Shown piece after piece: positions 433-63,024 of a stretch of DNA of 64,000 bases. The stretch is from Rhodothermales bacterium. Its GTDB lineage: Bacteria > Bacteroidota > Rhodothermia > Rhodothermales > VXPQ01. The position numbers and the translations under genes are program-made. The DNA lies in the NCBI GenBank assembly GCA_951812335.1, contig OX638293.1:62001-126000 (forward strand). Reading direction: 5' to 3'. Position 1 is the stretch's first letter. Every line of letters begins with the position of its first letter. The notes under the pieces were generated by a model. The model saw nothing but the letters and a program-made list of their open reading frames with translations, made no database searches and was not told the DNA's origin.

Positions 433-597
433 AGGATACTCTGATTAAGTCCGCAAAGCTCAGAGGCTGCGAGGGTCGCGTCACGTCCGCGACGCTCCGA
501 ATCCGCAGTGTTTCCCGCTGATTTCGACGATGGAATCATGACGTCCTTTACGCGCGAAAGTAAAGTGCCGGGCGAAGCGGTTTCGATCAGAGTATCC
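433..597 (+). repeat. Dispersed inverted-repeat element, copy A (165 bp)
   Basis: The left end begins AGGATACTCTGATTAAGTCC and the right end finishes GATCAGAGTATCC, so the termini are inverted repeats of about 13 bp. Inside is a shorter version of the variable hairpin seen in full copies: GTCGCG, a 7-nt loop, CGCGAC. The flank of the hairpin arms also pairs (GAG with CTC). It separates the Mrp-type gene from the Nfu-type gene. No coding function is visible in it. Confidence 0.85.
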
Positions 598-617
598 CGA
601 TAGTATTGCAAACTACG

Positions 618-1739
618 CTAAGCCGGTGCGGATCCCTTGTGCAGGATTTCCACCTTTTGCGTGGCGGCTTGCGTGGCGTTACGTACGGTGACCTGGCGCA
701 CAACCCGGTCCGCGAGCTCTCCGAACAGTTTCGCCGACACACTGTCCGGCTCGGCGAATACGATGGGGGTCCCTTCATCGCCCGACTCCCGCAGCCGCTC
801 CCGGATCGGCAGTTCGGCCAGCAAGGGAATGTCCAATTCCCTGCTGAGCGCGGCGGCGCCCCCGCGTCCGAAAAGATAATATTTTTTATCGGGCAATTCG
901 GGCGGCGTGAACCAGGCCATATTCTCGACAAGGCCCAGCACCGGCGCCTGCACATTCTCGAACATGGCAACGCCTTTCCGGGCGTCGGCGAGGGCGACAG
1001 GCTGCGGCGTCGATACGATCACCGCGCCGGTGAGCGCAAGGCTCTGCACGATGGTAAGCTGAATGTCTCCGGTGCCCGGCGGCAGATCCAGAATCATATA
1101 ATCCAGGTCGCCCCATGCACATTCTCCGAGAAACTGCCGGATGGCGTTCGTAACCATGGGGCCTCGCCAGATAACGGCTTTTTCGGGGTCCACCATCATG
1201 CCCATTGAAAGCAGTTTCACGCCGTGGCGCTCCACGGGCATGATCTTGCGGTGCTCATTAACGCGAGGCTTTTCGTCTCCGGCGCCGAACATAAGCGGCA
1301 CGGAAGGCCCGTATATGTCGGCGTCCACGAGCCCTACGTCGTACCCTTTTTTACGGAGCGCGCCCGCCAGATTCACGGCGACCGTGCTCTTGCCCACGCC
1401 CCCTTTCCCCGACGCTACGGCGATAAAATTGACAACCCCCTTGGGCTGTACGGTTTTCGCGGACCCTCCGTCGTGCATATCGAGGGAAATCATCTCGAAA
1501 TCGACGGTAATATCCACGGCGATCTCTTCGCGCGTTTCCTTGCGGATGGCTTCACGGCACAGGGAAGCCACGTTTTCGGCAAACGAAGCCGGAGGGTCCT
1601 TCAACAGGATCGTAAAAACCACCCGGTCATCCTTGACCGCAAGGTCCTTCACCAGATTCAGGCGCAAGATGTCTTTGCCGCGGTCCGGTACGACGACAGT
1701 CGACAGGGCGCGCAATACCGCTTCAAGAGAGATGGGCAT
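618..1739 (-). CDS. mrp: Mrp/NBP35-type P-loop ATPase, Fe-S cluster carrier
   Basis: The 373-residue protein has an N-terminal MIP18 (DUF59) domain of about 95 residues, followed by a ParA/MinD-like ATPase domain. The deviant Walker A motif GKGGVGKS is at residues 111-118 and DADIYGPS follows. The family loads Fe-S clusters onto apo-proteins. I chose the start at MPISLEAVL because the family begins there; the frame stays open 19 codons upstream but that part is not family-like. The CxxC found in many Mrp proteins after ENM is absent: the stretch reads ENMAWFTPPELPDKKYYLFG. I recall this variant in Bacteroidota homologues. Confidence 0.92.
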   Translation of the reverse strand: MPISLEAVLRALSTVVVPDRGKDILRLNLVKDLAVKDDRVVFTILLKDPPASFAENVASLCREAIRKETREEIAVDITVDFEMISLDMHDGGSAKTVQPKGVVNFIAVASGKGGVGKSTVAVNLAGALRKKGYDVGLVDADIYGPSVPLMFGAGDEKPRVNEHRKIMPVERHGVKLLSMGMMVDPEKAVIWRGPMVTNAIRQFLGECAWGDLDYMILDLPPGTGDIQLTIVQSLALTGAVIVSTPQPVALADARKGVAMFENVQAPVLGLVENMAWFTPPELPDKKYYLFGRGGAAALSRELDIPLLAELPIRERLRESGDEGTPIVFAEPDSVSAKLFGELADRVVRQVTVRNATQAATQKVEILHKGSAPA

Positions 1740-1982
1740 AAAGGCAATAAAAAAGGATGGCCGACGTTTCTGTAACGCAACGGCATGATAGCACAACCGT
1801 GCGCTAATATCCGTCCGATTCGGATGACGTGCAACGCCTCTTTGGGCTACTGTTGATCTCCATGCTGTTCAGCGGCGGCGATATCGACGACTGAAAGTAT
1901 CCGGGCCTGTGGGTATATTGGCATTGGCGCTGTTGCTCTGTGCCTGGCTTCGGCTGGGCTTTTTACTTCACACGCTAACCTG

Positions 1983-2729
1983 GTGAACCCTTTGAAACCT
2001 CTACATGGCGTTCTCGCGATTGTTCTTTCGCTAACCTTTCTGGCCCCCATTGGCGCGTACGCACAAAGTCAGGTGAGTATTACCGCTCTCGGAGGCGTGG
2101 GTTTTGCGACGCTCTCCGGGGACCTTAACACAGACCTCGATCCCGAGATTGAAGCAGCGAGTAAAAACCGGTTAACAGGATTCAATGGCAGGATAGCCGT
2201 GAACATACCTTTCGGCAAGGAGAAGACCGGAATGCAGTTGGGAGTCGCATATGCGCGCAAAGGAATGTCGCTAAACCAGCGTTTTGGGTTTGAGGTTAAC
2301 GAGGACGATTTTCTCTTTGGAGAATTTCCTGAAGAACTAAATGTCGACATCAATCTCAACTACGTGGAATTTCCCGTTCTTTTTCGGTACAACCTGAATA
2401 CCGGGACTTTTTCGCCCTATTTAATGCCTGGCCTGAAACTGTCCATACTTACCGATTGCTCTCTTTCCACTGCTTTTTTGGGCGAAGAAGTTTCTGTTTC
2501 CTGCAACAGCGACGAACTTGACACCAACAAGTTGGACATTGGATTCCATGCCGGAGCGGGCATGGATATTGCTTTGCTTCCTTCCGTGATGCTTACGCTC
2601 GATGCGTCCTACAATTACAGCCTGTCTTCCGTCTTCAATGATATGGAAGATTTCTTTCTGGAGGACGGACAGGGAAAAAACCGCGGGTTTTCGATTCTTG
2701 CGGGGATCACCGTACCCATAGGGCGATAA
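1983..2729 (+). CDS. Outer-membrane beta-barrel protein (PorT-like fold)
   Basis: The 248-residue protein starts with a signal peptide (hydrophobic LHGVLAIVLSLTFLAPIGA, likely cleaved after AYA near residue 27). The rest alternates hydrophobic and polar residues in short aromatic-rich strands and ends in a barrel-like strand (FSILAGITVPIGR). This is typical of the small Bacteroidota outer-membrane barrel families. The start is GTG; no clear Shine-Dalgarno lies upstream. The coding stretch looks AT-richer than its neighbours. Substrate and role are unknown, and no partner gene is adjacent on the same strand. Confidence 0.75.
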   Translation: MNPLKPLHGVLAIVLSLTFLAPIGAYAQSQVSITALGGVGFATLSGDLNTDLDPEIEAASKNRLTGFNGRIAVNIPFGKEKTGMQLGVAYARKGMSLNQRFGFEVNEDDFLFGEFPEELNVDINLNYVEFPVLFRYNLNTGTFSPYLMPGLKLSILTDCSLSTAFLGEEVSVSCNSDELDTNKLDIGFHAGAGMDIALLPSVMLTLDASYNYSLSSVFNDMEDFFLEDGQGKNRGFSILAGITVPIGR

Positions 2730-2879
2730 GTTCGGTCATCGTATCGGTCTCCCTGGGCAAATCGCGTGTGCGGATAACCGGTTACGCCGTTTCACACACC
2801 GCGCTCGTTTCCCCCGTTTTGGGCAACCCCTCCAGGCGAACGAAAACCATTCGATTGCAGCCTGACCGCGCTCCGCCCC

Positions 2880-4739: not shown

Positions 4740-4903
4740 GCGGCTTGGGCGCCTGACGTAAATGGATGGGAAAATACCTGCGCAGGAAATGTACGCAATG
4801 GACGTAACGAACCGTTTATGTGTACGTATCGATCCATAACAAAGTTACCGGCTCCGGGGAAAGGATATGCCGCAGGAAAAGAACCGTATGACACATTTCC
4901 CGT

Positions 4904-7494: not shown

Positions 7495-7529
7495 CACGCG
7501 CTTGTATTGCGACGGAAGCAATTCCCCTT

Positions 7530-8823: not shown

Positions 8824-8829
8824 TGACGC

Positions 8830-10883: not shown

Positions 10884-11216
10884 TGATCTTCGTTGATGTG
10901 ATTACAGGGCCTGATCCACATCCGAATCTTTCCTTTCGCCTCTGCACGCTGTGCGGTACGGATGCCTGAGATGGCGGTTCCCCTCTTCTCAACCTTGTTA
11001 CAATCGGGCGCCAGCCCCATTCCTCGCCGCCGTGCCCCTCGCAGCCTCTGAACTTTGCGAACTTAATCAGAGTATCCTATATTTGGAACCCTTTCGCCGG
11101 AAAGACGCACGCCTTCCCTGCCGCCTTCTTTTCCGTGGTTGTTTTCACCGGTCTCTGCCGGTTCGAACGGCGGACCATGTGGATGCCGGTCGGCCGCCCG
11201 GCGGAGAAACGTTCGC
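10884..11216. other. Gene-free stretch before tRNA-Val
   Basis: These 333 bp hold a partial dispersed element (11019-11078) and the presumed promoter region of the tRNA. A small ACCGG/CCGGT hairpin lies near 11148-11163. I see no convincing open reading frame or clear -35/-10 pair here. Confidence 0.5.
11019..11078 (-). repeat. Dispersed element, copy B (left half only, inverted)
   Basis: Read on the minus strand, it starts AGGATACTCTGATTAAGTTC and continues through GCAAAGTTCAGAGGCTGCGAGG, matching the left arm of full copies. Similarity fades after about 60 bp. The right terminus is missing, so this is a truncated remnant. Confidence 0.75.
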
Positions 11217-11290: not shown

Positions 11291-11297
11291 CTGCCAA

Positions 11298-11331
11298 GCC
11301 TCTGAGCTTTGTGGACTCAATCAGAGTATCC
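11298..11331 (-). repeat. Dispersed element, copy C (34-bp end remnant)
   Basis: The stretch GCCTCTGAGCTTTG followed by CAATCAGAGTATCC is the left arm of the repeat family in inverted orientation. It fills the space between the tRNA-Val 3' end (11290) and the thrS ATG (11334), ending two bases before the start codon. It therefore forms the 5' untranslated region of thrS if the tRNA and thrS are read together. Confidence 0.75.
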
Positions 11332-13298: not shown

Positions 13299-13557
13299 TA
13301 AGGATACTCTTATTAAGTCCGCAAAGCTCAGAGGCTGAAAGGGGTACGCTGGCAAGGAATGACGAAGCAATGTGGCAGGCCCCACACAATGAGGAATGAC
13401 TCAGCCAGCGTGCTTCTCGCAGACTCCCGCAGGGCGCTTCGCGCCCGCACTGCCCCGAATCCGCAGCGTTTCCGCTAATTCCGACGATGCCATTATGATA
13501 TCCTTTACGCACGAACGTGAAGCGCCGGTCGAAGCGGTTTCGATCAGAGTATCCTTA
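13299..13557 (+). repeat. Dispersed element, copy D (259 bp, full length)
   Basis: This copy runs from TAAGGATACTC to GAGTATCCTTA, so a TA dinucleotide flanks both termini. The internal hairpin arms are ACGCTGGC and GCCAGCGT. Between them lies a block with two GGAATGAC direct repeats around TGTGG-CAGGC-CCACA. It occupies most of the gap between thrS and infC. Short open frames in it are not supported as genes. Confidence 0.88.
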
Positions 13558-16026: not shown

Positions 16027-16149
16027 GGATACTCTGATCGAAACCGCTTCGACCGGCGCTTCACATTCGTGCGTAAAGGATGTCATAATTGCATCGTCGG
16101 AATCAGCGGAAAATGCTGCGGATTCGGGACAGTGCGGGCGTGAAGCGCC
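16024..16149 (-). repeat. Dispersed element, copy E (right half, inverted)
   Basis: On the minus strand this is the right half of the element. On the plus strand it begins TAAGGATACTCTGATCGAAA and matches the complement of copy D for about 125 bp with few differences. The left half is missing. It overlaps the pheS stop codon and lies between pheS and pheT, separating two subunits that are usually tightly linked. Confidence 0.85.
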
Positions 16150-16308
16150 GTACACATTTTCAAGTACCGGGAGTTTGGGAACGGTCCGGGAACAGGGATC
16201 GCCGCCCCGTACGTTGACGAAACATGCGCATAGCATGGACAACCACCGGATTAAGGCGGAAGCACGGTGCACCGGCGCTTCCGTCCCGGCACAACAACAC
16301 AGTACGTC

Positions 16309-21530: not shown

Positions 21531-22046
21531 CTACTCTATTTCGAGGAGGATATCGTTCTTGCCGACCGCATCGCCCGGAGCCACATGCACCGCCTTTACA
21601 GCGCCCCTTCTCGCAATACGCAATTCATTTTCCATTTTCATGGCTTCAAGGACCAGAGCGCCGGTTCCCGCCTCGACAAGCTGCCCCGGTTCTACAGCCA
21701 CGGACAGGACCATACCAGGCATAGGCGCATGCACTTTCATCGTGGCGCTTGCAGGCCCCCCGGATAACCCGAAACGTTCAAGCAGCAGTGCCCGCTCGCT
21801 TTTCAAAGACACATCGAACGTATAGCCGCCGATCCTTATGCGCCGCCGATCCCCGGACGCTTCCAGAACCGTCGCCACATAACTCTTGCCATCTATCAGC
21901 AAGGCCATGCGTTCCTCTCCGAGGCGTTCGTATGAAAACGGGACGGTGCGGCCATCGAGCGTAAACTCGTCCGCGCGCACGGAAATATCCATAACCCGAT
22001 CGGCGCAGGCTATCTGAAAATGTTCTGAGGCTCGTTTTGTCGCCAT
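21531..22046 (-). CDS. Biotin/lipoyl attachment carrier protein
   Basis: The 171-residue protein ends in a biotinyl domain with the attachment motif EAMKMEN, preceded by VHAPMPGMVLSVAVEPGQ and followed by the paired half VHVAPGDAVGKNDILLEIE. The N-terminal half is the small beta-rich region seen in carboxyltransferase-associated carriers of acyl-CoA carboxylases. It should carry biotin between carboxylase and carboxyltransferase subunits. Those catalytic subunits are not in this window, so the carrier is orphaned here. Confidence 0.88.
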   Translation of the reverse strand: MATKRASEHFQIACADRVMDISVRADEFTLDGRTVPFSYERLGEERMALLIDGKSYVATVLEASGDRRRIRIGGYTFDVSLKSERALLLERFGLSGGPASATMKVHAPMPGMVLSVAVEPGQLVEAGTGALVLEAMKMENELRIARRGAVKAVHVAPGDAVGKNDILLEIE

Positions 22047-22093
22047 AATCCGGATCGGGAACGGTGTTATGCAATATAATACACTTCAAATAC

Positions 22094-22113
22094 AGGATAC
22101 TCTGATTAAGTCC
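22094..22113 (+). repeat. Dispersed element, copy F (20-bp end only)
   Basis: The sequence AGGATACTCTGATTAAGTCC is a perfect left end of the repeat family. Nothing else of the element follows. It lies between the biotinyl carrier gene and the small membrane-protein gene and, with copy G, brackets that single gene. Confidence 0.75.
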
Positions 22114-22134
22114 CCGGCATAGTCCTTGTTCATC

Positions 22135-22413
22135 ATGCATGCTTCCACGGACGGCGCAACAGGCCACGCGCGTACGAAAAGGGCGCTGAAATGGGTGATC
22201 CTGATCATAGGCGCCCTCTTCTTTATTCTCGTCCTCCGGGAAGCCATCGACCCGTACGGCGACCGGCCGTACATAGAGATCACCCATGGGGACCATGTCC
22301 ACTACGTGCCGCACGATCGGGACCCGAAGGTTTCCATCAGCAAATTCCCCACGACCCCACCCGGACCGGATGAAACCATTACGCCGGAAGGACGCATTGT
22401 GCCAAAGGAATGA
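22135..22413 (+). CDS. Small single-pass membrane protein
   Basis: The 92-residue protein has one transmembrane helix (ALKWVILIIGALFFILVL, about residues 18-35). A short exterior part follows with a HGDHVHYVPHD cluster of histidines and a proline-rich tail. I do not recognise the family. I chose ATG 22135 over a TTG three codons earlier. The gene is bracketed by repeat ends on both sides (22094-22113 and 22421-22506) and lies next to a metal-uptake cassette, so a metal-related role is possible but unproven. Confidence 0.6.
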   Translation: MHASTDGATGHARTKRALKWVILIIGALFFILVLREAIDPYGDRPYIEITHGDHVHYVPHDRDPKVSISKFPTTPPGPDETITPEGRIVPKE

Positions 22414-22420: not shown

Positions 22421-22506
22421 AGGATACTCTGATTAAGTCCGCAAAACTCAGAGGTTGCGAGGGGCGTACAGCGCCGAGCGAAGCGGTTTTGATCAGAGTA
22501 TCCTTA
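22421..22506 (+). repeat. Dispersed element, copy G (86 bp, internal deletion)
   Basis: Both termini are present (AGGATACTCTGATTAAGTCC and GATCAGAGTATCCTTA) but the internal hairpin block is lost. The last three bases, TTA at 22504-22506, are the complement of the TAA stop of the TonB receptor gene on the minus strand. The element therefore sits between a plus-strand gene end and a minus-strand gene end. Confidence 0.88.
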
Positions 22507-24723
22507 AAACAACACTTTGACGAGCATCTTGATATTGCGTCCCTGCTGCGGCATGATGCTCTTTACCTTCGAAAGATGATCCCGGTACTCGGCGTTGGTT
22601 GCATTCTCGACGCCGATATCGAACGTGTACAAGGAGCGTCCTATCGAAAGGTAGTACTGCACATAGCCTCCAAACACGAGGTACCCGTCTGTCGGTTCTT
22701 CGAAATCGCCGAGACGATCCTGATTGCGTGCCGCCTCGGCGGAACCGGACACCCTGAGTTTACCCTTGGCGTACGCCGCTTCCAGGCGACCCCGCAGGGG
22801 AGGAATCAAGGGCATCGGTTCGTCGATATCGACCAGCGTACCGCGTACGTACGCCCCCGACCCGGAAAGGGTTACGGAGGGGGCGAGCTGTAGCGCAAAG
22901 GAGGCCTCCGATCCCGCCATACGCACCGTCGAGCCGGTTTGCTGGTATACCGCGAGAAGGGTGCGCACGCTGATCTCGCCTGTATTTCTGGGATAAATGA
23001 AATCCCGGATGTAATTGCGATACAGGTTCAGAGATGCGGAAAAACGCTCGCGCTGGTATTCCCCGAACACTTCCGCGCCCAATCCCTTTTCGACGCCGAG
23101 AGCCGCATTGCCTATTTCGAAGGTATATGCCGCCAGATGGGGCCCTGACGAGAACAATTCTTCGATCCCCGGCATGCGAATCGAGCGCACGCCGCCGATA
23201 CCCACGGAAAAATCGCTGCCGAATCGGCGAAACATACGAAAAGAGCCGGAAAAGCCTCCGGTCGTTCGGTTGCGGATCAGGCCTGCGAGTGTTTCCTGCC
23301 CAACGGTACGGGGGCGAACGATGCGCAGGTCGTAGCGAAGCCCCCCCTGAAACGACATGTTTTCCAGATTGATATCCTGATATCTGAACACGGCCACCGT
23401 CCACTCCCTCGAATTCGGAGTGAATGAAAAACCGCCGGAGGCATAATCGCGATACCCCCCCCAAATGCTTACCAGACGATTGTGCCTGCGCCCGTGGGTG
23501 CGGGCAAGAAGCCGACCATAGTACGACAGGAGTCCGAACTCGATGCCGAGTGCGCCGCTCGCTTCGTATTCCTGATGGAAATATCTCGAAAACGATCCCT
23601 CGAATTCGAGATGCGAAAACCGGGGCAAAACATCCAGTATCATGCCCTTCGTTTTCAGGTGACGGCGAGACAACTCGACATCGACGCCCTGCGGGTGCGC
23701 TCCGATAAACCCGCCCGGTATGCCGTACCGGGACGTGTAATAACTGCCGGAGACACCCGCATGACCCCATTCGCCGATGCGGCTGATCCCCACGGAACCG
23801 TTTCCGGTGATCAATGCGGTATTCGCAAGAATGCCGATCGGGGTGGATACGTCCCCCGAGTTTCGCAGGCTGCCGTCGGTGCGCACCGCAAAACCGCCGA
23901 TCGGCGCTTCCAGACTGAATCCTCCGGACAGGCCATCGTTGACGGATTGCCCCTGAAAAACGCCGACAGCATGAATCTCCGCGGGCATGATCACCGGAAC
24001 ATACCCGCGGACCACATTCACCACGCCGCCCAATGCGTTCGGCCCGTAAAGCAGCGCGGCCGGACCGCGAACCACTTCGATATGTTCCGTCATGAGCGGG
24101 TCTACCGCGACCGCATGATCGGCGGAGGTAGCGGACAGATCGCCGACACGCCCGCCATCTTCGATGACAAGCAGCCGGTCGCCGCCCAACCCCCGCAGGA
24201 CCGGTCGGGCAGGCGCCGGCCCCATGGACCTCATAGCAATGCCAGGCTCGTTATCGAGCGTTTCGGCAATGGTCGTTCCGAGGTGCTGCCGAAGCCGCTT
24301 GCCCCCCATCTCCATATCCGAATCGCTGATCATGTGGGACTCGCTTTGGCCGTCCACGATGACCTCGCCAAGCTGGATCAGCGAAACCGGCATCCGCAGG
24401 AGGACATGCGACGTATCCGAACCGGCGCCGCCCACTTCCACCAGGGTCACCAGAGGCTCGTAGCCTATGCGCCAGGCCTTGAGCGTGTACTGCCCGGCTT
24501 CCAGAAAACGGACCTCGAAACGACCTTCCCGATCCGTTCTCGAGCTACGATTGGCCTCTTCGACAAGGACCTGCGCAAAGCGGATCGGCTCTCCGGTTTG
24601 CGCATCCTCGATGGATCCTGCGATCACCGCCGTATGCTGCGCATGCGACGACGTTGCGGCCGTCATGGTCATGCACGCCGCAAAACCCATCCACAAAAAC
24701 CGGCAGAGCCCGAAGCAACGCAT
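22504..24723 (-). CDS. TonB-dependent receptor, ZnuD-like (cassette copy 1)
   Basis: The 739-residue protein has a signal peptide (MRCFGLCRFLWMGFAACMTMTAATSSHA), a carboxypeptidase-regulatory-like domain (GSIEDAQTGEPIRFAQVLVEEA...), a plug domain and an outer-membrane barrel ending KMLVKVLF. The plug segment RPVLRGLGGDRLLVIEDGGR...DHAVAVDPLMTEHIEVVRGPAALLYGPNALGGVVNV is typical of ZnuD-type zinc receptors. It should import a metal or metal complex across the outer membrane, driven by TonB. I chose the MRCF start, 32 codons inside the open frame, because it opens a clean signal peptide. Its TAA stop is the end of repeat copy G. It follows a His-rich lipoprotein by 7 bp. Confidence 0.9.
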   Translation of the reverse strand: MRCFGLCRFLWMGFAACMTMTAATSSHAQHTAVIAGSIEDAQTGEPIRFAQVLVEEANRSSRTDREGRFEVRFLEAGQYTLKAWRIGYEPLVTLVEVGGAGSDTSHVLLRMPVSLIQLGEVIVDGQSESHMISDSDMEMGGKRLRQHLGTTIAETLDNEPGIAMRSMGPAPARPVLRGLGGDRLLVIEDGGRVGDLSATSADHAVAVDPLMTEHIEVVRGPAALLYGPNALGGVVNVVRGYVPVIMPAEIHAVGVFQGQSVNDGLSGGFSLEAPIGGFAVRTDGSLRNSGDVSTPIGILANTALITGNGSVGISRIGEWGHAGVSGSYYTSRYGIPGGFIGAHPQGVDVELSRRHLKTKGMILDVLPRFSHLEFEGSFSRYFHQEYEASGALGIEFGLLSYYGRLLARTHGRRHNRLVSIWGGYRDYASGGFSFTPNSREWTVAVFRYQDINLENMSFQGGLRYDLRIVRPRTVGQETLAGLIRNRTTGGFSGSFRMFRRFGSDFSVGIGGVRSIRMPGIEELFSSGPHLAAYTFEIGNAALGVEKGLGAEVFGEYQRERFSASLNLYRNYIRDFIYPRNTGEISVRTLLAVYQQTGSTVRMAGSEASFALQLAPSVTLSGSGAYVRGTLVDIDEPMPLIPPLRGRLEAAYAKGKLRVSGSAEAARNQDRLGDFEEPTDGYLVFGGYVQYYLSIGRSLYTFDIGVENATNAEYRDHLSKVKSIMPQQGRNIKMLVKVLF

Positions 24724-24730
24724 GGTCTGC

Positions 24731-25183
24731 CTATTCCACAGTGACGGATATATCCGGCGTTGTGAAATCGGCGTGACCTTCATGCAGAAGTTGAACCCGT
24801 ATGGCGGTATCGCCGGCATCGCCTCCTTCCAGCGTAAACGTCCACCGACCCGTATAGGCTATGGTAACGATATTGCTGCCCCGGACCTCAACCCCCAAAG
24901 AAAATTCCTTGTCAAGGTCTTCGCCATGCACCTCATGTCCATCGTGATCGAGAAACTCGACCTCGATGTCGGACGTGGTTTCGCCGGCTCCGACGGTAAG
25001 CGATCCCGTCACTTTGGCCTCTTCGACGCGAACGACTTCTTCGTCGTCGAGAACGAGCACAAGACCTTCGGCGTCGGCATGCTCGTCATGGTCGTCGTCT
25101 TCGGCGGGATTGGAGCAGGCAGCCAGCCCGCCCATGATCAAAAATACAATAACGGCAACGCCGTACTGTTTGCGTACAAACAT
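24731..25183 (-). CDS. Histidine/aspartate-rich lipoprotein of metal cassette, copy 1
   Basis: The 150-residue protein has a lipoprotein signal (MFVRKQYGVAVIVFLIMGGLAACSN, lipobox Cys23). The mature start is a metal-binding-like cluster (AEDDDHDEHADAEG), and further histidines occur in FLDHDGHEVHGEDLD and LLHEGHADF. It is probably a periplasmic or surface metal-binding partner of the TonB receptor, whose start lies 7 bp downstream. I do not recognise a named family. In the second cassette only the signal peptide of this gene survives, fused to the receptor. Confidence 0.8.
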   Translation of the reverse strand: MFVRKQYGVAVIVFLIMGGLAACSNPAEDDDHDEHADAEGLVLVLDDEEVVRVEEAKVTGSLTVGAGETTSDIEVEFLDHDGHEVHGEDLDKEFSLGVEVRGSNIVTIAYTGRWTFTLEGGDAGDTAIRVQLLHEGHADFTTPDISVTVE

Positions 25184-25255
25184 GGCTCTCCTCTGATGTG
25201 TAGTGTAAATGTGTCTTGAGAAAACAAAACGCCGCCAGAACGGCGTGGGATGGGG

Positions 25256-25630
25256 TCAAGACACCACAGGAGGAGCGCGTATCGGGCGATAGAAAAGGCT
25301 GCGGGCAGACAGTGCGGACCAGAGCGTCTGCCCGGTCACATGCACGGGAAGCAGCGGCGCCCGGATTTGATCGATAACCGGGGTCGTCAATGAACGAAAC
25401 GCGCACAGATCGCACTCGAAATGATGCGGAGGCGTTTGTTCTTCGACAAGAAAATCGACCGGGACGCCTGTCGACCCGCTCTGCACTCCCTCGGCAGCAG
25501 CACCATGCACATGCTCCAGAGAGCGGATATGCGACAGGTTATGCCCGAACGGCGCCGCCAGGGCGCCGCACAACATCACGGCGAGCAAAAGAACTCCCGA
25601 CCGTTCGATATGTGTGCGCAGCGAAAACAT
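25256..25630 (-). CDS. DUF2946-like small exported protein, copy 1
   Basis: The 124-residue protein has a signal or anchor helix (SGVLLLAVMLCGALAAPFGHNL) and a histidine-cysteine motif HHFECDLCAF near residue 70, plus HIRSLEHVHG. HxxCxxC-bearing small proteins of this kind are often linked to metal handling. It is the first gene of the three-gene cassette, 72 bp before the lipoprotein gene. The near-identical second copy is at 28308-28682. The family assignment is by motif and size only. Confidence 0.7.
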   Translation of the reverse strand: MFSLRTHIERSGVLLLAVMLCGALAAPFGHNLSHIRSLEHVHGAAAEGVQSGSTGVPVDFLVEEQTPPHHFECDLCAFRSLTTPVIDQIRAPLLPVHVTGQTLWSALSARSLFYRPIRAPPVVS

Positions 25631-25740
25631 ATATCCCGGATGCTGTAAGAGCAGGTTACCGGATTCGTATGCCCGATTACGGCAGGCCCCTTACACACGA
25701 CACGTTGCGCAAGGTTGCAGCGCCCCGCAGGAAATTCTCA
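25631..25740 (-). promoter_or_regulatory. Upstream region of metal cassette copy 1
   Basis: This region is conserved in both cassette copies. It holds a palindrome TTGCGCAA at 25705-25712, about 75 bp before the first gene, within GTTGCGCAAGGTTGC. It could be an operator for a metal-responsive repressor. I see no clear -35/-10 pair. Confidence 0.35.
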
Positions 25741-25999
25741 TAAGGATACTCTGATTAAATCTGCAAAGTTCAGAGGCTTCGAGAAGCGCGCTGGCAAGGA
25801 ATAACGAAGCAATGTGACAGGCCCCACATAATGAGGAATGACACAGCAAGCGCGCTTCTCGAAGCCTACCGAAGGGCGCTTCATGTACGCCATGCACCAA
25901 ATCACAGCATTTTTCGCTGATTTCAACGACATCGTCATGATGTCCTGTACGCACGAACATGAAGCGCTGATCGAAGTAGAATTAATCAGAGTATCCTTA
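25741..25999 (+). repeat. Dispersed element, copy H (259 bp, full length)
   Basis: It runs from TAAGGATACTCTGATTAAAT to AGAGTATCCTTA. The internal arms CTTCGAGAAGCGCGCT and AGCGCGCTTCTCGAAG pair perfectly over 16 bp, with the CACATAATG/GGAATGAC block in the loop. After it, a second partial end (GGAGCATCCTTA, to 26014) follows; its last TTA is the complement of the second receptor's stop. It separates the two copies of the metal cassette. Confidence 0.88.
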
Positions 26000-26011
26000 A
26001 TCGGAGCATCC

Positions 26012-28243
26012 TTAAAACAACACTTTGACAAGGATCTTGAGATTGCGTCCCTGCTCGGGCATGATGCTCTTTACCCTCGAAAGGTGATCCCTGTATTCGG
26101 CATTGGTTGCATTTTCGATGCCGATATCGAACGTGTACAAGGAGCGGCCTATCGAAAGATAGTACTGCACATAGCCTCCAAGCACGACGTACCCGTCCGT
26201 CGGTTCTTCGAACGCGCCGAGACGATCCTGTTTGCGCGCCGCCTCAGCGGAACCGGACACCCGAAACCGCCCCTTGGCGTACGCCGCTTCCAGACGACCC
26301 CGCAGGGGAGGAGTAAAGGGCATCGGCTCATCAATGTCGATCAGCGTACCGCGTACGTACGCCCCCGATCCGGAAAGAGTTACGGAGGGAGCGATCTGTA
26401 GTGCAAAGGAGGCTTCCGATCCTGACATACGTACCGTCGAGCCGGTTTGCTGGTATACCGGCAGAAGCGTACGCACACTGATCTCACCTGTATTTCTGGG
26501 ATAAATGTAATCCCGGATGTAATTGTGATACAGGTTCAGAGATCCGGAAAAACGCTCGCTTCGGTATTCTCCAAACACTTCCGCACCCAATCCCTTTTCA
26601 ACACCAAGATCCGCATTGCCTACCTCGAAGGTATAGGCCCCCAGATGTGGCCCTGACGAGAACAGTTCTTCGATGCCCGGCATGCGAATCGAGCGCACGC
26701 CGCCGATACCCACGGAGAAATCATCGCCGAATCGGCGAAACATACGAAAAGAGCCGGAGAAGCCTCCGGTCGTTCGGTTGCGTATCCGGCCGGCCAGTGT
26801 CTCCTCCCCAACAATCCGGGGGTCCCCAACCACTCGGGGGCGAACGATACGCAGGTCGTATCAAAGCCCCCCCTGAAACGACATGTTTTCCAGGTTGATA
26901 TCCTGATATCTGAACGCCGCCACCGTCCACTCCCTCGAATTCGGAGTGAATGTAAAACCGCCGGAGGCAAAATCGCGATACCCACCCCAAAGGCTTACCA
27001 GACTATTGTGCCTGCGGCCATGGGTTCGGGCAAGAAGCCGACCATAGTACGACAGGAGCCCGAACTCGATGCCGACTGTGCCGCTCGCTTCATATTCCTG
27101 ATGAAAATACCTCGAAAACGACCCCTCGAATTCGAGATGCGAAAACCGGGGCAGAATATCCAGTATCATGCCCTTCGTTTTCAGGTGACGGCGAGACAAC
27201 TCGATGTCAACACCCTGCGGGTGCGCTCCGATAAACCCGCCCGGTATACCGTACCGAGATGTGTAATAACTACCCGAGACGCCCGCATGCCCCCATTCGC
27301 CGATGCGGCTGATCCCCACGGAACCGTTTCCGGTGGTCAATGCGGTATTCGCAAGGATGCCGATCGGGGTGGATACGTCCCCCGAGTTTCGCAGGCTGCC
27401 GTCGGTGCGCACCGCAAAACCGCCGATCGGCGCCTCCAGGCTGAATCCTCCTGACAGACCATCGTTGGCGGATTGCCCCTGGAACACGCCGACGGCATGA
27501 ATCTCCGCGGGCATGATCACGGGAACATACCCGCGGACTGCATTCACCACGCCGCCCAACGCATTCGGCCCGTAAAGCAGCGCAGCCGGACCGCGAACCA
27601 CTTCGATACGCTCCGTCATGAGCGGGTCTATCGCAACCACATGATCGGCGGAGGTAGCGGACAGGTCGCCGGTGCGCCCGCCATCTTCGATGACAAGCAG
27701 CCGCTCGCCGCCCAATCCCCGCAGGACCGGACGGGCAGGGGCAGGACCCATAGACCTCATAGCAATGCCGGGCTCGTTATCGAGTGTTTCGGCGATCGTC
27801 GTTCCGAGGTGCTGACGAAGCCGCCTGCCCCCTATATCCATATCCGAATCGCTCATCACATGGGACTCGCCGCGCCCGTCCACAATGACCTCACCGAGCT
27901 GGACCAGTGAAACCGGCATCCGCAGGATGACGTGCGACGTATCCGAACCGGCGCCGCCAACCTCCACCAGGCTCACGAGAGGCTCATAGCCTATGCGCCA
28001 GGCCTTGAGCGTGTAGTTCCCGGCTTCCAGAAAACGGACCTCGAAACGACCTTCCCGATCCGTTCTTGAACTACGGTTGGCCTCTTCGACAAGGACCTGC
28101 GCAAAGCGGATCGGTTCTCCGGTTTCCGCATCCTCGATAGACCCGGCGATCACCGCCGTATGCTGGGCATTGGAACAGGCAACAAGCCCGCTCATGATCA
28201 AAAAAACAATAACGGCAGCGCCGTGATGTTTGCGTACAAACAT
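26012..28243 (-). pseudogene. Chimeric lipoprotein-signal/TonB receptor with internal TGA (cassette copy 2)
   Basis: This is the second copy of the receptor, about 90% or more like copy 1 by eye. The N-terminus is the lipoprotein signal MFVRKHHGAAVIVFLIMSGLVACSN fused directly to the receptor at AQHTAVIAGS, so the lipoprotein body and the receptor's own signal are deleted. An in-frame TGA at 26861-26863 replaces the Arg codon of copy 1 after MSFQGGL. The frame continues after it to KILVKVLF. A nearby in-frame 18-bp tandem duplication adds PRVVGD beside PRIVGE. It probably makes a truncated, inactive barrel unless the TGA is read through. The rest of the frame is well kept, so the break looks recent. 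Confidence 0.82.
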
Positions 28244-28307
28244 GACTCCTCTCTTGTTTGAAAGATGTGTCTTGTAAAAAACGGCGCCGGAACGGCGCCG
28301 GATAGGG

Positions 28308-28682
28308 TCAAGACACTACAGGAGGAGCACGTATCGGGCGATAGAAAAGGCTGCGGGCAGACAGTGCGGACCAGAGCGTCTGCCCGGTCACATGCACGGG
28401 AAGCAGCGGCGTCCGGATTTGATCGATAACCGGGGTGGCCAATGAACAAAACGCACACAGATCGCACTCGAAATGATGCGGATGCGTTTGTTCTTCGACG
28501 AGAAAATCGACAGGCAGGCCTGTCGATCCGCTCTGCACCCCCTCGGCAGCAGCCCCATGCACATGCTCGAGAGAGCGAATATGCGACAAGTTATGCCCGA
28601 ACGGCGCCGCCACGGCGCCGCACAACATCACGGCGAGTAAAAAAACTCCCGACCGTTCGATATGTGCGCGCAGCGAAAACAT
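28308..28682 (-). CDS. DUF2946-like small exported protein, copy 2
   Basis: This 124-residue protein differs from the copy at 25256-25630 at only a few positions, for example THPHH for TPPHH and AFCSLAT for AFRSLTT. The signal helix and HHFECDLCAF motif are kept, with one extra cysteine. It lies 64 bp upstream of the chimeric receptor gene. It appears intact, so the first gene of the second cassette may still be expressed. Confidence 0.7.
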   Translation of the reverse strand: MFSLRAHIERSGVFLLAVMLCGAVAAPFGHNLSHIRSLEHVHGAAAEGVQSGSTGLPVDFLVEEQTHPHHFECDLCAFCSLATPVIDQIRTPLLPVHVTGQTLWSALSARSLFYRPIRAPPVVS

Positions 28683-28803: not shown

Positions 28804-28981
28804 TAAGGATACGCTAATTCAAGGACGCAAATCTCTATTATGCATTTTTTGCATAATGACATACCTTTCTATTCATTTTGTGCATAATTGCTATGCTGGA
28901 GCACCTGAGTAACATTCCGCGGCTCCTCTTCACCCTTTACCCTGGCTGAGCAAAGTGGTTTTGACCAGAGAATCCTATCTA
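28804..28981 (+). repeat. Dispersed element, copy I (degenerate, AT-rich interior)
   Basis: The left end TAAGGATACGCTAATTCAAGG and right end TTTTGACCAGAGAATCCTA are recognisable but diverged. The interior is AT-rich and unlike other copies. It contains a hairpin ATTATGCA-TTTTT-TGCATAAT at 28837-28857. The right end is identical over about 28 bp to the right end of copy J, which follows directly. Confidence 0.65.
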
Positions 28982-29240
28982 TAGGATACTCTGATTAAAT
29001 CCGCAAAGATTCAGAGGCTGAAAGGGGTGCGCTGGCAAGGAATGACGAAGCAATGTGGCAGGCCCCACATAATGAGGAATGACACGGTCAGCGTGCCCCT
29101 CTCTGCCTCCCGAAGGGCGTTTCACGTTCGCGACGCCCCGAATTCGCAGTGTTTCCCGCTGATTCCGACGATGAAATCATGATATCCTGTATTTGCGAAC
29201 GTGAAGCGCTGAACGAAGTGGTTTTGACCAGAGAATCCTA
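28982..29240 (+). repeat. Dispersed element, copy J (259 bp, full length)
   Basis: It runs from TAGGATACTCTGATTAAATC to CCAGAGAATCCTA. The internal arms, GGGGTGCGCTGGC and GTCAGCGTGCCCC, pair with a few G-T pairs or mismatches, around the GGAATGAC/CCACATAATG block. Its final CTA (29238-29240) is the complement of the def stop codon TAG. TCTA lies outside both ends, so a short target duplication is possible. Confidence 0.85.
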
Positions 29241-35066: not shown

Positions 35067-35846
35067 CTACGAAGATGCCTCCGAAGCCTTACCGGTCGGC
35101 TTGTTTTTTTTATCCTCGGATGCTTCCGGCCCTGTGTCGGATGTTGCCAGCTCCGTGTCGGATGCTTCCGGCCCTGTATCGGATGTTGCCAACTCCGTGT
35201 CGGATGTTGTCGACTCCGTGTCGGATGCTTCCGGCTCCGTGTCGGATGTTGTCGACTCCGTGTCGGATGCTTCCGGAGAAGGTACTTCCGTCTCGTTCAC
35301 CTCCTTTACCTCTTCAGCCGATTTCTCATGCATGACTTCCTCGTCGCCGGAATACTCGGGCGCCTCCGCCGCAGAGATTTCGTCCGCTTGTTTCGTTGTC
35401 GCCGGTGTCGCCGACTTGCTGCGGCGGCCGCCACGGCGCGTCCGTTTACTGCTTTTCTGCGATCCGTCTCCGGTCGTTCCGCCCGTCTCATTGTAATCGA
35501 CAAGTTCGACGATAGCCATAGGAGCAGCATCTCCTGCACGACGGCCAATCCTGACAACGCGCGTATACCCGCCTGGACGCTCTCCAACCTTCTCGGCCAC
35601 TTCCGTGAACAGTGCGGTGACGGATTGCTTGTCCCGCAGATGCCGAAACGCCTGCCGACGATTATGCTGCGAATCGTCTTTAGCCCGGGTAATAATGGGC
35701 TCGATGAAGGTGCGCAGGGCCTTGGCCCGCGGCACCGTCGTCGTAACGCGCTTGTGTGCGATCAACGCATTGCCCAACGCTACGAGCGTAGCCTTTCGAT
35801 GAGATGCGTTGCGCCCAAGTTTGTGTCGCTTTCTCTGGTGTCTCAT
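35067..35846 (-). CDS. rplQ: 50S ribosomal protein L17 with long acidic repeat tail
   Basis: Residues 1 to about 118 are a normal L17 (MRHQRKRHKLGRNASHRKA...GERPGGYTRVVRIGRRAGDAAPMAIVELVDYN). The following 140 residues are an added tail: a basic linker (KRTRRGGRRSK), an acidic helix region, and then seven-residue repeats of the ASDTEST/SDTELAT/DTGPEAS kind. Total length is 259 residues against about 115-175 usual. The repeats come from a 21-bp minisatellite at 35116-35278. It is the last gene of the alpha operon, after rpoA. Confidence 0.93.
   Translation of the reverse strand: MRHQRKRHKLGRNASHRKATLVALGNALIAHKRVTTTVPRAKALRTFIEPIITRAKDDSQHNRRQAFRHLRDKQSVTALFTEVAEKVGERPGGYTRVVRIGRRAGDAAPMAIVELVDYNETGGTTGDGSQKSSKRTRRGGRRSKSATPATTKQADEISAAEAPEYSGDEEVMHEKSAEEVKEVNETEVPSPEASDTESTTSDTEPEASDTESTTSDTELATSDTGPEASDTELATSDTGPEASEDKKNKPTGKASEASS
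35116..35278 (-). repeat. 21-bp minisatellite coding the L17 tail
   Basis: About eight units of 21 bp start TCGGATGCTTCCGG or TCGGATGTTGCC and alternate two unit types. The unit length is a multiple of three, so unit gain or loss would keep the frame. It encodes the DTE-rich tail. Confidence 0.85.
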
Positions 35847-55761: not shown

Positions 55762-55861
55762 AATATCGGTATCGGTTCAATGTGGTGGGTGCGCGCATCG
55801 GGATGCCGTAGAGCCGTCTTGAACGATTCCGTAGCAAAAGCCAGAATAACACAAGCCGAAT

Positions 55862-55890
55862 AATATAATGCTTCTCGAGTTTTTATTCAA
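55862..55890 (-). promoter_or_regulatory. Candidate sigma-70-type promoter of the ribosomal supercluster
   Basis: On the minus strand TTGAAT and TATATT are 17 bp apart. Transcription would start about 95 bp before rpsL in a 190-bp, locally AT-rich gap after ftsH. The match is hand-read. A weak hairpin with a T run (TCGAGGCC-TTTCGA then T6, about 55913-55934) lies just upstream and could end ftsH transcription. Confidence 0.5.
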
Positions 55891-55951
55891 TGAAATCGGT
55901 TAAGATCAAGTAAAAAATCGAAAGGCCTCGAGGAGTGGGAGTACCCCTGCA

Positions 55952-58081: not shown

Positions 58082-58270
58082 ATCGCAAGTGATTGTTCCA
58101 ATACGGCGGTACGCCCCGTCAACCTGTTTGTCGCATTCTGATGCGTTTCATACGTAAGGGCAAACATTGTTTACCTGTAACAGATGGGGCTGTTCCTCCG
58201 GGAGGCACGACGCATCGGGAAAAAGAACGAGGCGAATAGCGCCAGGCCACCCTGCCCCCGGACAGGGAGT

Positions 58271-61200
58271 CTACGGAAGGGCGAGTGGTTCGACGCGGGA
58301 GTTTCCCGCAAATTCCCCGAGCATATACCCAAGTCCTTCCAGCGCCATACCGGCAGCCGCTTCATCCGGAAAATGTCCAATTGCAGCACGATAAAAAATC
58401 CTGTCGTTCACCGAGCCGGGCACCACACCGGCACGAAGACCCTGCTGGATATATGGAGCGACAAGCATTTCCATAGATTCGCGGTCGGCCTGCGTGTCGA
58501 GCACGATCGTGAATCCGCCCAATTCCGGCCGTATGCCCCCGGGACCGTACAAGGAAAATTCATCGCTCGGGATCGCAGGCAGGGTTGTCTCATTGGAAAG
58601 TAAAGGCGCCTCGTCAAGAGATAAGCGGGTTTCGTCGGGGGGCAAGAGCACCTTGTCGGGAACAGCAGGAACATCGCCAACCTGTTCGCTGGCAAGGGAA
58701 TCCGGAAGAGATGAACCGGCAAGGGAATCCGGAAGAGATGAATCGGCAAGGGAATCCGGAAGAGATGAACCGGCAAGGGAATCCGGAAGAGATGAACCGG
58801 CAAGGGAATCCGGAAGAGATGAACCGGCAAGGGAATCCGGAAGAGATGAACCGGCAAGGGAATCGGCTGCTACAGAGTCCGCAGCAGCTTGCAATGCCTG
58901 AAGTTCCTGATCCAGCATGTCGAGAATATATCCGGCTCTATCGGCATAGGTCGTGGATGGATACAAGGTGCGCACGCCGGTATACACCGAACGGAGATCG
59001 ACCATATCCGTGCCCGCGGAAGCAAGAAGATCATGTTGCGGCGCAACGTCGCTCCCGGATGGCGCACCAAGCGTATCCGGGGCGGCGTACTCTTCCGAAT
59101 CTTCCGTAAAAAGACTTGTGTTGGCTTCGCGCTCTTCGACCAGCAGCGTGTCTGCAGAAGAGGGAACGGCCGGAGCAAGTTCCAGAATCCCGGCCTGCGC
59201 AAGCACCGAATCGGGTAGCCGTACAGGCAACGGACCAAACACATCCAGCGAATCGGAGACCGCCCATTCGAAATAAATACGCCCCGCTGCAAACAGCGCC
59301 CTCGGCGCCACCTCCATATTTCGATATCGGGAGGCAATGAGCACCATGCGGTTGAGCGCTTCTTCGTACGCCCCGCGACGCCATCGGAGCACCGCCTCAT
59401 CGTATTCCTGCAGCGCCACAGCGAGACTATCGGACGTTTCCTCGGGTTCCAGGCCAAGTTCTATGCGGACCCTGGCCGCAAAATCAGAATCCGGATAGTC
59501 AGCCAACACCTGTCTGTATATCCCTTGCGCACTAGCGATATCGCCCAGTGAGCGCTGCACTTCGGCCAGTGCATAAAACGCCCGCTGAGCAACTTCCGTA
59601 TCGGCATCTTTCTCAATCACCATGCGATACAAGACTGCCGCGGAATCCGCCTGATTCATCGAAAGAAAAAGGACATTCCCCAGTTCGTATCGGGCCAACG
59701 CCCGTTCCTCTTCCATAATCGCCTGACTCAGCGAATCACGCGGAACGCCCGAAATATCGATCAAGGGCAACGCATACATCCCTATACCTTCGCCGCCGTC
59801 GTCCGAAAAAACCGCTCCCTCTCTCGAATCGGGATCCTCTCTCGCGCTCAAGGCGATCGACACGGCTTCCATACGGCGCCAGCCGGGCACATGGGGACGT
59901 TCGCCCCAGCGCGCTACAAAGTTCATACGCGCTTCCTGCACGCGAGTACGATCCCGATGATATAAAAAACCGGCCTCACCGGTATCGGCGACATTGGAAC
60001 CTGCCCCCGCACCTTCCACACCCGTCCGGGAGGCCACATCCTGAAAGCCGCGTTCCGCTTGCAATTGTTCTGCGCGCCGGCGCTCTTCGGCAAGCTCTTC
60101 GGCTTTCTGCTGCTGCAATACACGAATACGCTCGTCGAATGCCTCGTCGGGCAAGCGCCCCAACTCAAGCAACGAATCCATACGTGCGATGTTGTTGCGC
60201 ACTTCGGCGAAACTGGCGAACACTTCGGCCTGATGGGCCGCATCCGTCACAGCTTCGGGAGCGTATTGCGCGGATGTCCCAGAGCCGGACGAGGAGGAGG
60301 GCATTGCTGTGCGCGCAGTATCGAAGTGCGCCGAGGCAAGAAGGTAATCCCTGAAAACGTCCCGGTACAGTTCGGCCAGCGCATAGTGGGTCAAGCCCCT
60401 GACAGCCTGACCTGTGTTTTCTTCCTCATACAGGATATGCCGGTACATGGAAAGCGCATCCCGGGATTGTTCTTGCGCATGATAAATACGGCCGCGCACG
60501 TACGCGAGTTCGAAGCGCCGATCATAATGCTTGTCGTCACGATCCATGCGACGCAATGCTTCAAGGGCCGCAACACTATCGAGGTGCATGCCCTGTACAC
60601 GCACGATACTCAACGACGCAGCATAGTCAAGTTCATACGGGGGACGCGCCTTGAGCACACGCCTGTAGGCCTCGACCGCTTCTTCGTACCGCTCCAGTGT
60701 TTCGTACACCTGACCGAGCAAAAAAGCCCCTTTAGCCCGGAGCTCGTTGCTGCGCACATCCAGCAAACCCGCTTCGAGTTCGGTAGCCGCTTTTTCGAAG
60801 GCCCCCTGTTTAACGGAAAGTTCGCCGAGAGCAAGGCGCAGACGCGCCGCCGATCGCCGGGACGTGTTTTCCCTGCCCAGGCTGCTCACAAGATGTTCCT
60901 GCGCCGATTCGTAGGCTCGCGCCGCCATCAGTGTCCGGGCCAGCCATATCCGGGCCTCGTCTTCAAGACTGGTCCCGAAGGCGATTACTTCACGGAATTT
61001 CTGCTCGGCCCCCACATAATTTTCCTGATAGAAATAGGATTTTCCGATAAGTACGAGCGCATCGTCCACCCATTTGGAGCGCGGATGGTCTCGCAGCATA
61101 TTGGCGCTTCTATCTATCGCATTCTGGAAATTTACATTACCGCCCGACCGGGGCGGGGCGCCGAAGATGCCAAGATAGCGTGTCCGGTCTACAGGCTGTT

Positions 61201-61381: not shown

Positions 61382-61452
61382 AAAGCGGCAGTCGAATGTG
61401 CTGCGCAGGAAAGAGAGAAAACGTGAAGGAGCCCAACCAGAACGCAGGAAAA

Positions 61453-61470
61453 CGGGGAATAGTATCCCGT
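61453..61470 (-). terminator. Candidate terminator downstream of pyk
   Basis: A short stem GGGA/TCCC with further partial pairing lies directly after the pyk stop. On the minus strand it is followed by CCGTTTTCC. The stem is short, so this is tentative. Confidence 0.35.
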
Positions 61471-61471
61471 A

Positions 61472-62899
61472 CTATATGCGGCTTACCTGAATCATATTGG
61501 TTCGCCCCTTTGCGGGCAACGGCATCCCCGCCGTAATGACGATCAGGTCTCCGGACCGGACCAACCCATGCTCTCGCAAGACGGAGTGAACGCTCTGGAC
61601 TCCTTCGTCGGTGTCCCGCTGAAACGGGATCAGGAACGATGTTGTTCCCCAGAGAAGGTGCAGACGACGCATTACCCTTTCGTCATCGGTGAATGCATGC
61701 AGGGGCATGCCGGGACGATGGCGGGCGATCGCGCGCGCCGTAGTTCCCGTAGCCGTAAGACAAGAAATGGCGGTAGCGCCTACCTGCTCGGCCAGATCGA
61801 CCGCCGTAAAGCTTACCGACTCCGTAAGGTCGTCGGAGATAAAACGGCGCTCCACCGGCTTGGAAAGCGGGTTCTGGTATTGCCGCCGATGCCGTTCGGC
61901 TTCCTCGACAATCCGGGACATGACTTCGACCACTCGAACGGGATGTTTTCCCACCGCCGTTTCACCGGAAAGCATAACCGCATCACTCCCGTCAAGCACC
62001 GCATTGGCGACATCGCTTGCCTCGGCTCTCATCGGGCGAGGATTATCGATCATGCTCTCGAGCATCTGCGTAGCGGTGATCACCGGCTTGCCAGCCGCAA
62101 TACACTTGTGGATGATCATTTTCTGCGTGGATGGCACCTGTGAGATAGGCATTTCGATGCCCAGATCCCCGCGTGCCACCATGATGCCCTCGCTGGCCTC
62201 CAAAACGGCATCGAAACGGCGGACCGCTTCCGGTTTCTCGATCTTGGCTAATGCCATAACCTGTTTGCCCGATGCACGTATACGCTGCAGCAAGTCGATT
62301 ACGTCGGAATCGTCGCGCACGAACGACAGGGCAATCATATCGACATCCTGTGACAAGCCGAATGCAAGGTCGCGCCGATCTTTTGCAGTAAGCGCCGGCG
62401 CAGACGTTTTGATGTCGGGCAGATTGACTCCCTTTCGGGAAGACAAAGGCCCGCCGACAATCACCTCGGTAACGACATCGGTGTCGACAATATCTACTAC
62501 TTGCAATTCTAGCAAGCCGTCGTCGACCAGAATGCGCCCGCCTACACTGACATCCTGCGCCAGCAGGTCGTACGTGATCCGCACCCGCTCGGCCGTGCCG
62601 TATTCGATGGGTTCGGTAGTCAGTGTTAACCGCTGCCCCTTGCCGATCGGAACGGCGCCGTTTCTGATCGGCCCAAGCCGGATTTTGGGCCCCTGCAGAT
62701 CCTGGAGAATCGGCACCACCTTCCCCTGTTCGTCGGCTGCCTCGCGCACGTACCGAATAAGCCGGGCATGATCATCGTGATTGCCGTGAGAAAAGTTGAG
62801 CCGGGCAATATCCATACCCGCCCGAATCAACTCCCGGATCGTGCCGGCATCCGACGAAGACGGTCCCAGGGTACAAACAATTTTGGTGCGTCGCCTCAT
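61472..62899 (-). CDS. pyk: Pyruvate kinase
   Basis: The 475-residue protein has RTKIVCTLGPSS, LNFSHGNHDDHARLI, KIEKPEAVRRFD, VARGDLGIEMP and the C-terminal regulatory domain. It makes pyruvate and ATP from phosphoenolpyruvate and ADP. The ATG at 62899 is chosen; GTG 62905 is in frame just before. Repeat copy K begins one base upstream of that GTG, so the element forms the whole near-upstream region. Confidence 0.97.
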   Translation of the reverse strand: MRRRTKIVCTLGPSSSDAGTIRELIRAGMDIARLNFSHGNHDDHARLIRYVREAADEQGKVVPILQDLQGPKIRLGPIRNGAVPIGKGQRLTLTTEPIEYGTAERVRITYDLLAQDVSVGGRILVDDGLLELQVVDIVDTDVVTEVIVGGPLSSRKGVNLPDIKTSAPALTAKDRRDLAFGLSQDVDMIALSFVRDDSDVIDLLQRIRASGKQVMALAKIEKPEAVRRFDAVLEASEGIMVARGDLGIEMPISQVPSTQKMIIHKCIAAGKPVITATQMLESMIDNPRPMRAEASDVANAVLDGSDAVMLSGETAVGKHPVRVVEVMSRIVEEAERHRRQYQNPLSKPVERRFISDDLTESVSFTAVDLAEQVGATAISCLTATGTTARAIARHRPGMPLHAFTDDERVMRRLHLLWGTTSFLIPFQRDTDEGVQSVHSVLREHGLVRSGDLIVITAGMPLPAKGRTNMIQVSRI

Positions 62900-62905
62900 A
62901 GTCAC

Positions 62906-63024
62906 AGGATACTCTGGTCGAGTCCGCGAAGTTCAGAGTATCCTTAATTTCAACGATGGAATCATGATGTCATCTACGCGCGAAAGTAAAGTGCCGGGCG
63001 AAGCGGTTTTGATCAGAGTATCCT
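62906..63024 (+). repeat. Dispersed element, copy K (119 bp, rearranged)
   Basis: The termini are AGGATACTCTGGTCGAGTCC and GATCAGAGTATCCT. The internal hairpin is missing; in its place an extra partial end (TTCAGAGTATCCTTAA) lies at about 62932-62948. The right half closely matches copy A. It lies between hisI and pyk, both on the minus strand. Confidence 0.85.

Follow-up and report, generated by a model that had tools for sequence, protein, structure and literature searches.

A genus-wide miniature inverted-repeat element of Rhodothermales, most likely mobilised by an IS5-family transposase

A 64,000-nucleotide stretch of the chromosome of a Rhodothermales bacterium (GenBank assembly GCA_951812335.1, contig OX638293.1, positions 62,001 to 126,000; called the window below) contains a dispersed family of inverted-repeat elements. 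We consider it very probable that these repeats form one genus-wide miniature inverted-repeat transposable element (MITE), most likely mobilised by an IS5-family transposase. A complete copy measures about 254 bp, starts with GGATACTCTGATTAA and finishes with the near-complement TGATCAGAGTATCC; like other MITEs it is short and non-coding, and its inverted ends are 12 bp long. An earlier, sequence-only reading of the window had proposed a MITE moved by a Tc1/mariner- or IS630-type transposase, or else a role resembling that of repetitive extragenic palindromes (REP) and bacterial interspersed mosaic elements (BIME). The first part of this proposal is borne out by the terminal inverted repeats, the lack of room for a gene, a target duplication and element-free sites in relatives. 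The mover is here corrected from IS630/Tc1 to IS5, and an unnamed, abundant repeat is tied to its likely parent transposase. The family is a new IS5-type MITE, belonging to a kind of mobile element that is already well known; among open-licence PMC papers we found none that pairs 'Rhodothermales' with 'miniature inverted-repeat'.

Searching the window with the end 13-mer AGGATACTCTGAT, allowing up to two mismatches, gave 21 matches, compared with a mean of 0.86 and a maximum of 4 in shuffled sequence. Twenty of the 21 fall in the eleven places that had been listed from sequence alone, and the expected ends were found at all eleven, in some cases with one or two mismatches; the remaining match, at 10129, may be a chance occurrence. 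Three copies are full length, as had been counted, and measure 253, 253 and 255 bp from GGATAC to GTATCC rather than 259 bp, a figure that took in flanking bases. The others are internally deleted copies, a right-end half, left-end fragments, a lone end, and ends around unrelated sequence, in line with the earlier description. All window copies are too short for a transposase gene, so that none carries one, again as claimed.

The window belongs to a single-contig genome of 2,686,407 bases (G000), in which exact AGGATACTCTGAT occurs 198 times (101 forward and 97 reverse) and the reversed pattern does not occur. A whole-genome search with one full copy gave at least 40 full or near-full matches with 84–100% identity among the best 40 of 265 candidates scored, and the element is present at roughly 100 or more places in the chromosome. 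Further copies were also found in relatives, where the sequence-only reading had suggested a search: all six genomes of the genus (G000 and G109 to G113) have matches, and the remaining 108 genomes of the order have none. Exact ends number 198, 50, 67, 71, 75 and 176 in G000 and G109 to G113, respectively. In a collection of 84,980 species genomes, one for each species and possibly lacking the window's own genome, the exact 26-nucleotide left end occurs only in three Rhodothermales metagenome-assembled genomes. The suggestion that no named family has these ends holds to that extent; the motif nevertheless resembles the GGATGGTCTGATTAA end of the ISXfu2 family, to which we return below.

Comparisons among full-length copies are based on 158 candidates, reduced to 143 once loci with alternative ends were each counted once and lengths were restricted to 243–266 bp, and to 141 once duplicate flanks had been discarded. 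Copies entered the set either because they resembled one window copy or because they had a pair of exact ends, which leaves decayed copies under-represented. Of these distinct copies, 66 come from the window's genome. Mean pairwise identity is 0.89 in both G110 (n=23) and G111 (n=19), 0.82 in G000 (n=66) and 0.77 in G113 (n=23), which suggests a more recent amplification in G110 and G111, the comparison of ages between species being rough given the unequal gathering of copies. The copy tree clusters by species more than expected by chance: it has 40 label changes, whereas 200 shuffles averaged 69 and never fell below 61. For 88 of the 141 copies, the closest other copy belongs to their own genome. 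At least thirteen contigs of G110 and G111 start 124–166 bases from an element end; the repeat seems to break these two assemblies.

Target duplication and element-free sites

Insertion duplicates 4 bp of target, most often TTAA. Of the 141 copies, 43 are flanked by an exact direct repeat of this length, compared with a mean of 15.2 (SD 3.0, maximum 26) in 2000 shuffles, and exact repeats that are not palindromic are also in excess (16 versus 2.7). Neither 3-bp (8 versus 12.2) nor 5-bp repeats (1 versus 0.9) show any enrichment, and when flanks are tested position by position, the 4-bp diagonal gives z-scores of 3.3, 6.2, 4.9 and 2.3. The most frequent exact words are TTAA (20 copies), TTTA (7) and TATA (5), with single cases such as TGTA. 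IS5-type 4-bp duplications go under the label YTAR. The targets of this family (TTAA, TTTA, TATA, TGTA) are broader than YTAR, and the combination of GG ends with a 4-bp duplication is that of IS5. Inverted complementarity of the flanks is clear at positions 1 (z 11) and 2 (z 7) and unclear further out. We considered and rejected a general insertion into hairpin loops, since a palindromic 4-bp target explains the complementarity at these two positions.

Sequence colinear with the window in relatives reveals differences in presence and absence at several of the window's places, and such insertion polymorphism between relatives, which the sequence-only reading had put forward as a check, is typical of MITEs. 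Empty-site comparisons numbered 377 in all, and the results given here are among the pairs listed. Two elements of G111 are missing from the colinear sequence of G110, which is about 94–95% alike to that of G111. One of these provides a clean empty site, with CCTTAA..TTAAATCAAG around the element in G111 and CCTTACATCAAG at the same place in G110. At locus L189 an element interrupts a member of a different small repeat (AATTTAA..TTAAGG), whose element-free members read ATTTAAGG at both L044 and L126 and ATGTAAGG at L183. The clean G110 site and these element-free members together support insertion. The target in L189, L183, L044 and L126 is itself a small dispersed repeat (GGGTTGATTGGACAGATTTCG...).

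These data bear directly on the proposal that the MITE was inserted at TA sites by an IS630/Tc1-mariner transposase. TA does lie within many flanks, and an equidistant TA on both sides is seen in 60 of 141 copies, compared with 38.4 in shuffles (maximum 52); the empty-site pair L073 and L060 would also be compatible with duplication of the 2 bp TA. However, the TA flanks that had been noted are the middle of TTAA, and a TA duplication cannot explain 4-bp direct repeats such as TTTA/TTTA, found in 7 copies. The transposase domain DDE_3, detected in 3 of the 14 genomes used as controls, has no match in the six genomes of the genus, and remnants of an IS5 transposase occur next to these ends, as described below. 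We regard a TA-targeting mover as highly improbable. A still smaller probability, close to nil, attaches to the view that the repeats are REP/BIME-like extragenic palindromes kept by a RAYT (Y1) transposase. The repeats are indeed dispersed palindromes, many of them present as halves, but a 254-bp unit with ends of the insertion sequence (IS) type and a 4-bp target duplication is unlike REP or BIME, and Y1_Tnp, the domain of RAYT and IS200 proteins, matches none of the six genomes of the genus and 5 of the 14 controls. Both rivals are largely refuted.

Elements are also found nested inside other elements. A nested element with the same TGAA/TTAA junction is present at L051:488, L036:3144 and L025:402, three loci in two species; the nested pair may be a composite that was dispersed as a whole. 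In G000, the full-length copies at L003, L007, L008, L012 and L020 share one junction, GTATCCTTAATTCCGACG, to an additional right-end module roughly 80 bp long that comes after them, which suggests either that elements nested at a single hot spot or that a composite was amplified.

Candidate parent transposase and decay of the family

The Pfam domain DDE_Tnp_1 was detected at nine places in four of the six genomes of the genus, and all three matches in G113 (L198, L202 and L205) adjoin MITE ends. At L205 a transposase gene that has lost a large internal part lies between both ends, GGATACTCTGATTTAATCC on the left and GGATACTCTGATCAATCC on the right when read inwards, the whole spanning 666 bp. 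L198 and L202 retain the 3' part of the transposase and the right end, and the 379 bp that L198 and L205 have in common are identical. The protein pieces match the NCBIfam IS5 family NF033581 with E-values of 5e-40 and 2e-12, as well as Pfam DDE_Tnp_1 and DUF772, and are 37% and 42% identical to InsH1 of E. coli IS5. By these sequence matches, the transposase that adjoins the same ends is assigned to the IS5 family. In the window's own genome, a C-terminal transposase fragment with a decayed right end after it persists at approximately 2685034–2685280. As for an autonomous element with the same ends, which the sequence-only reading had suggested looking for, such ends were seen on broken IS5 copies in G113, and no intact copy was found in the genus.

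The MITE and the IS have in common an asymmetry just inwards of the 12-bp core, with TTAA or TTTAA on the left and CAA on the right. Comparison of MITE cores with the IS parts by blastn gave no match among the loci compared, where approximately 300 bp of the middle of the IS is missing, and only the ends therefore appear to be common to the two. Outside the genus, in genome G011 of the same order, locus L208 holds a relative with 72% identity and an open frame of 329 codons, whose ends are GGATGTTCTGATTTA and GGAATGTCTGATCAA.

Similar ends occur in known IS5 elements. An ISXfu2-family element (NZ_CP020997.1) has the ends GGAAGGTCTGATCAA and GGATGGTCTGATTAA and is present as two tandem copies with the 4-bp duplications CTAG and CTAA. 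The ends of the repeat begin with GGA, as do those of ISXfu2 and of IS5A from E. coli K-12; GGATACTCTGATTAA of the repeat agrees with GGATGGTCTGATTAA of ISXfu2 at 13 of 15 bases, and a 4-bp target duplication is common to both. Unlike these two elements, the repeat has no transposase, is 254 bp long and has TTAA as its commonest target.

On the strength of the shared ends and the remnants, mobilisation by this IS5-family transposase is the most likely origin of the copies. The transposase would recognise the 12–15 bp ends and cut and insert the 254-bp unit in trans. Its preferred targets would be 4-bp words that are AT-rich and in many cases palindromic (TTAA above all, TTTA and TATA as well), and these would be duplicated in the process. 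Deletion, nested insertion and drift would then produce half copies and lone ends. As no intact transposase was found in the genus, and as the sole remnant found in the window's species is a fragment, the family is probably immobile and decaying there. The six species of the genus combine sites with and without the element, copies that look young (G110 and G111) and more diverged ones (G000 and G113), and so offer a natural series for the spread of a MITE and its decay after breakage of its transposase.

Several observations weigh against this origin. An exact 4-bp direct repeat is missing in 98 of the 141 copies, and in 5 copies, compared with 2.3 in shuffles, the 4-bp flanks are inverted rather than direct (for example L010, L011, L014 and L025). 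Inverted flanks of 8 bp, in 3 copies versus 0.2 in shuffles, remain unexplained by a palindromic target. The second site that differs between G111 and G110 is flanked by further differences and is not a clean pair; the pairs L004, L022 and L089 are also unclean and without duplication, the L073 and L060 pair admits a 2-bp reading, and the TGAA/TTAA flanks of nested copies recur at one spot. The NF033581 scores of the G113 pieces, 137.6 and 46.9, fall below the cut-off of 140, as expected of fragments. The IS copy at L205 has the flanks TTAT/TTAA and the G011 relative CAAA/TTAG without a duplication, and there is none at the one copy of E. coli IS5A viewed. No intact transposase with the family ends (GGATACTCTGAT) was found among the six genomes, the three in G113 being broken, and the transposase has no match in G110 or G111, whose collected copies look youngest.

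Other candidate parents fared less well. Of the DDE_Tnp_1 matches, at least those at L199 (G000:C1:636280-636654) and L203 (G111) belong to another IS with the ends GGGCGTGTTAACACTA or GGGCCTGTTAACACTA, and L199 was rejected as the parent because its ends, GGGCGTGTTAACACTA, differ from those of the MITE. L200 and L201 carry the protein of L203, and two further matches in G111 are at L204 and L206. The ends of this second IS read GGGC(G/C)TGTTAACACTA and lie about 850 bp apart. Widely spaced MITE ends were also examined as possible autonomous elements and set aside: the long frames at L092, L093, L094 and L099 show no transposase and by eye look like host genes. DDE_5, the Pfam domain linked to IS701, has no match in the six genomes of the genus and matches in 2 of the 14 controls.

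Two bacterial MITEs treated in the review PMC10969869 invite comparison. Chunjie, from Geobacter uraniireducens, is of similar size (178–235 bp), with 38 full or near-full and 57 partial copies that are mostly intergenic. Chunjie is reported from one distant genome, whereas the repeat occurs in six species of one genus with 50–198 exact ends each. QMITE2 of Coxiella burnetii, of which 10 of 78 copies are full length, is there given a predicted fold of -113. The repeat resembles it in its many truncated copies and its stable predicted fold (-102 kcal/mol for one copy), but has a 4-bp duplication in place of the direct repeats of 7–9 bp reported for QMITE2.

Internal hairpins

The consensus structure of the repeat, derived from an alignment of 56 copies drawn randomly from the 120 (of 141) that passed a 252–256 bp length filter, has 58 pairs in six helices, consisting of a terminal stem and two internal hairpin arms. 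Changes on both sides are found at 16 of the 58 pairs. Compensatory cells number 89, compared with 26.6 in column shuffles and 0–9 when the partner is slid. Among 62 nearest copy pairs, two-sided changes in internal stems keep pairing in 24 of 25 cases, and one-sided changes keep the pair in 113 of 188, compared with the 35% expected from the loop spectrum. One window copy (28984..29238) folds with a z-score of -5.6 and -102 kcal/mol.

Such observations would be expected if, in addition to a MITE origin, the internal hairpins were now under selection and not shaped by mobility alone, a possibility to which we give a low probability. The selected hairpins would act as transcribed structured RNA, as a terminator or as a DNA cruciform. 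The compensatory changes, the keeping of pairs between near copies and the fold of one window copy speak for selection. However, the copies are related, so that shuffles overstate significance, and correction of an imperfect palindrome, or descent from a few source copies, would give the same pattern. Substitution rates also argue against it, since internal stems (0.049) equal the loops of the 5' half (0.049), the loops of the 3' half being at 0.086, and a second window copy folds with a z-score of only -2.4. An excess of G-U over A-C cells (876 versus 162) was considered as a sign of selection at the RNA level and dropped, because the strand-specific excess of 16:5 columns became 2:12 on the opposite-strand structure, giving 17 versus 17 columns when pooled. 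It is accordingly doubtful that the hundreds of full and partial copies serve genus-wide, after loss of the transposase, as selected structured RNA or DNA signals, for example at transcript 3' ends or processing sites. If selection did lie behind the compensatory changes, this would be a MITE turned into a genome-wide structural signal.

Copies within the window

The first element, at 434..597 on the plus strand, is an internally deleted copy of 164 bp with both ends, and none was seen at the equivalent place in G113, G109, G110 or G111. A lone end of the second IS, GGGCCTGTTAACACTA, occupies this place in G109. Two left-end fragments on the minus strand, both with approximate inner borders, follow at 11034..11077, where the corresponding left-end piece of G113 is longer, and at 11293..11331, where none was seen in G113. 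The latter lies between a tRNA gene and thrS and stops 2 bases ahead of the thrS ATG. Directly 3' of thrS is a full-length plus-strand copy (13302..13554; 253 bp) with the flanks CTAA and TTAA; G113 and G109 have no full element there. The right-end half copy at 16027..16160 (minus strand, inner border approximate) begins immediately past the pheS stop codon, and G113 holds only a short end at this place.

An end-only piece at 22095..22116 on the plus strand lies immediately 3' of a TATAAT-like sequence, and degenerate ends are present at the same place in G113, G109, G110 and G111. Within 22040–22140, this TATAAT-like sequence and the element end after it belong to a gene's leader; the end near 22095 is a possible old insertion retained as leader sequence. 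An internally deleted copy of 82 bp with both ends is located at 22422..22503 (plus strand); the site is empty in G110 and G111 and filled in G113. The second full-length copy (25744..25996, plus strand, 253 bp, flanks ATAA and TTAA) is absent in G113 and adjoins a degenerate second right end at 26000–26011.

End matches identify degenerate left and right ends enclosing unrelated sequence at 28807..28975 on the plus strand. Close by, at 28984..29238 on the same strand, is the third full-length copy (255 bp, flanks TATA and TATC), the one with the strongly folding sequence described above. The last element, at 62907..63023 on the plus strand, is internally deleted with an extra end at 62932–62943; G109 has a short remnant and G113 different sequence at its place.

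Part of the window, 22489–28682, is a tandem duplication of about 3 kb with genes for TonB-dependent receptors, which is also found in G113; G109, G110 and G111 match with one copy. An element-mediated origin of this duplication was considered and is not supported, as G113 is duplicated without an element at the middle junction. In addition, tandem repeats with periods of 27 bp (58691–58879) and 21 bp (35116–35295), both multiples of three, lie inside long open frames.

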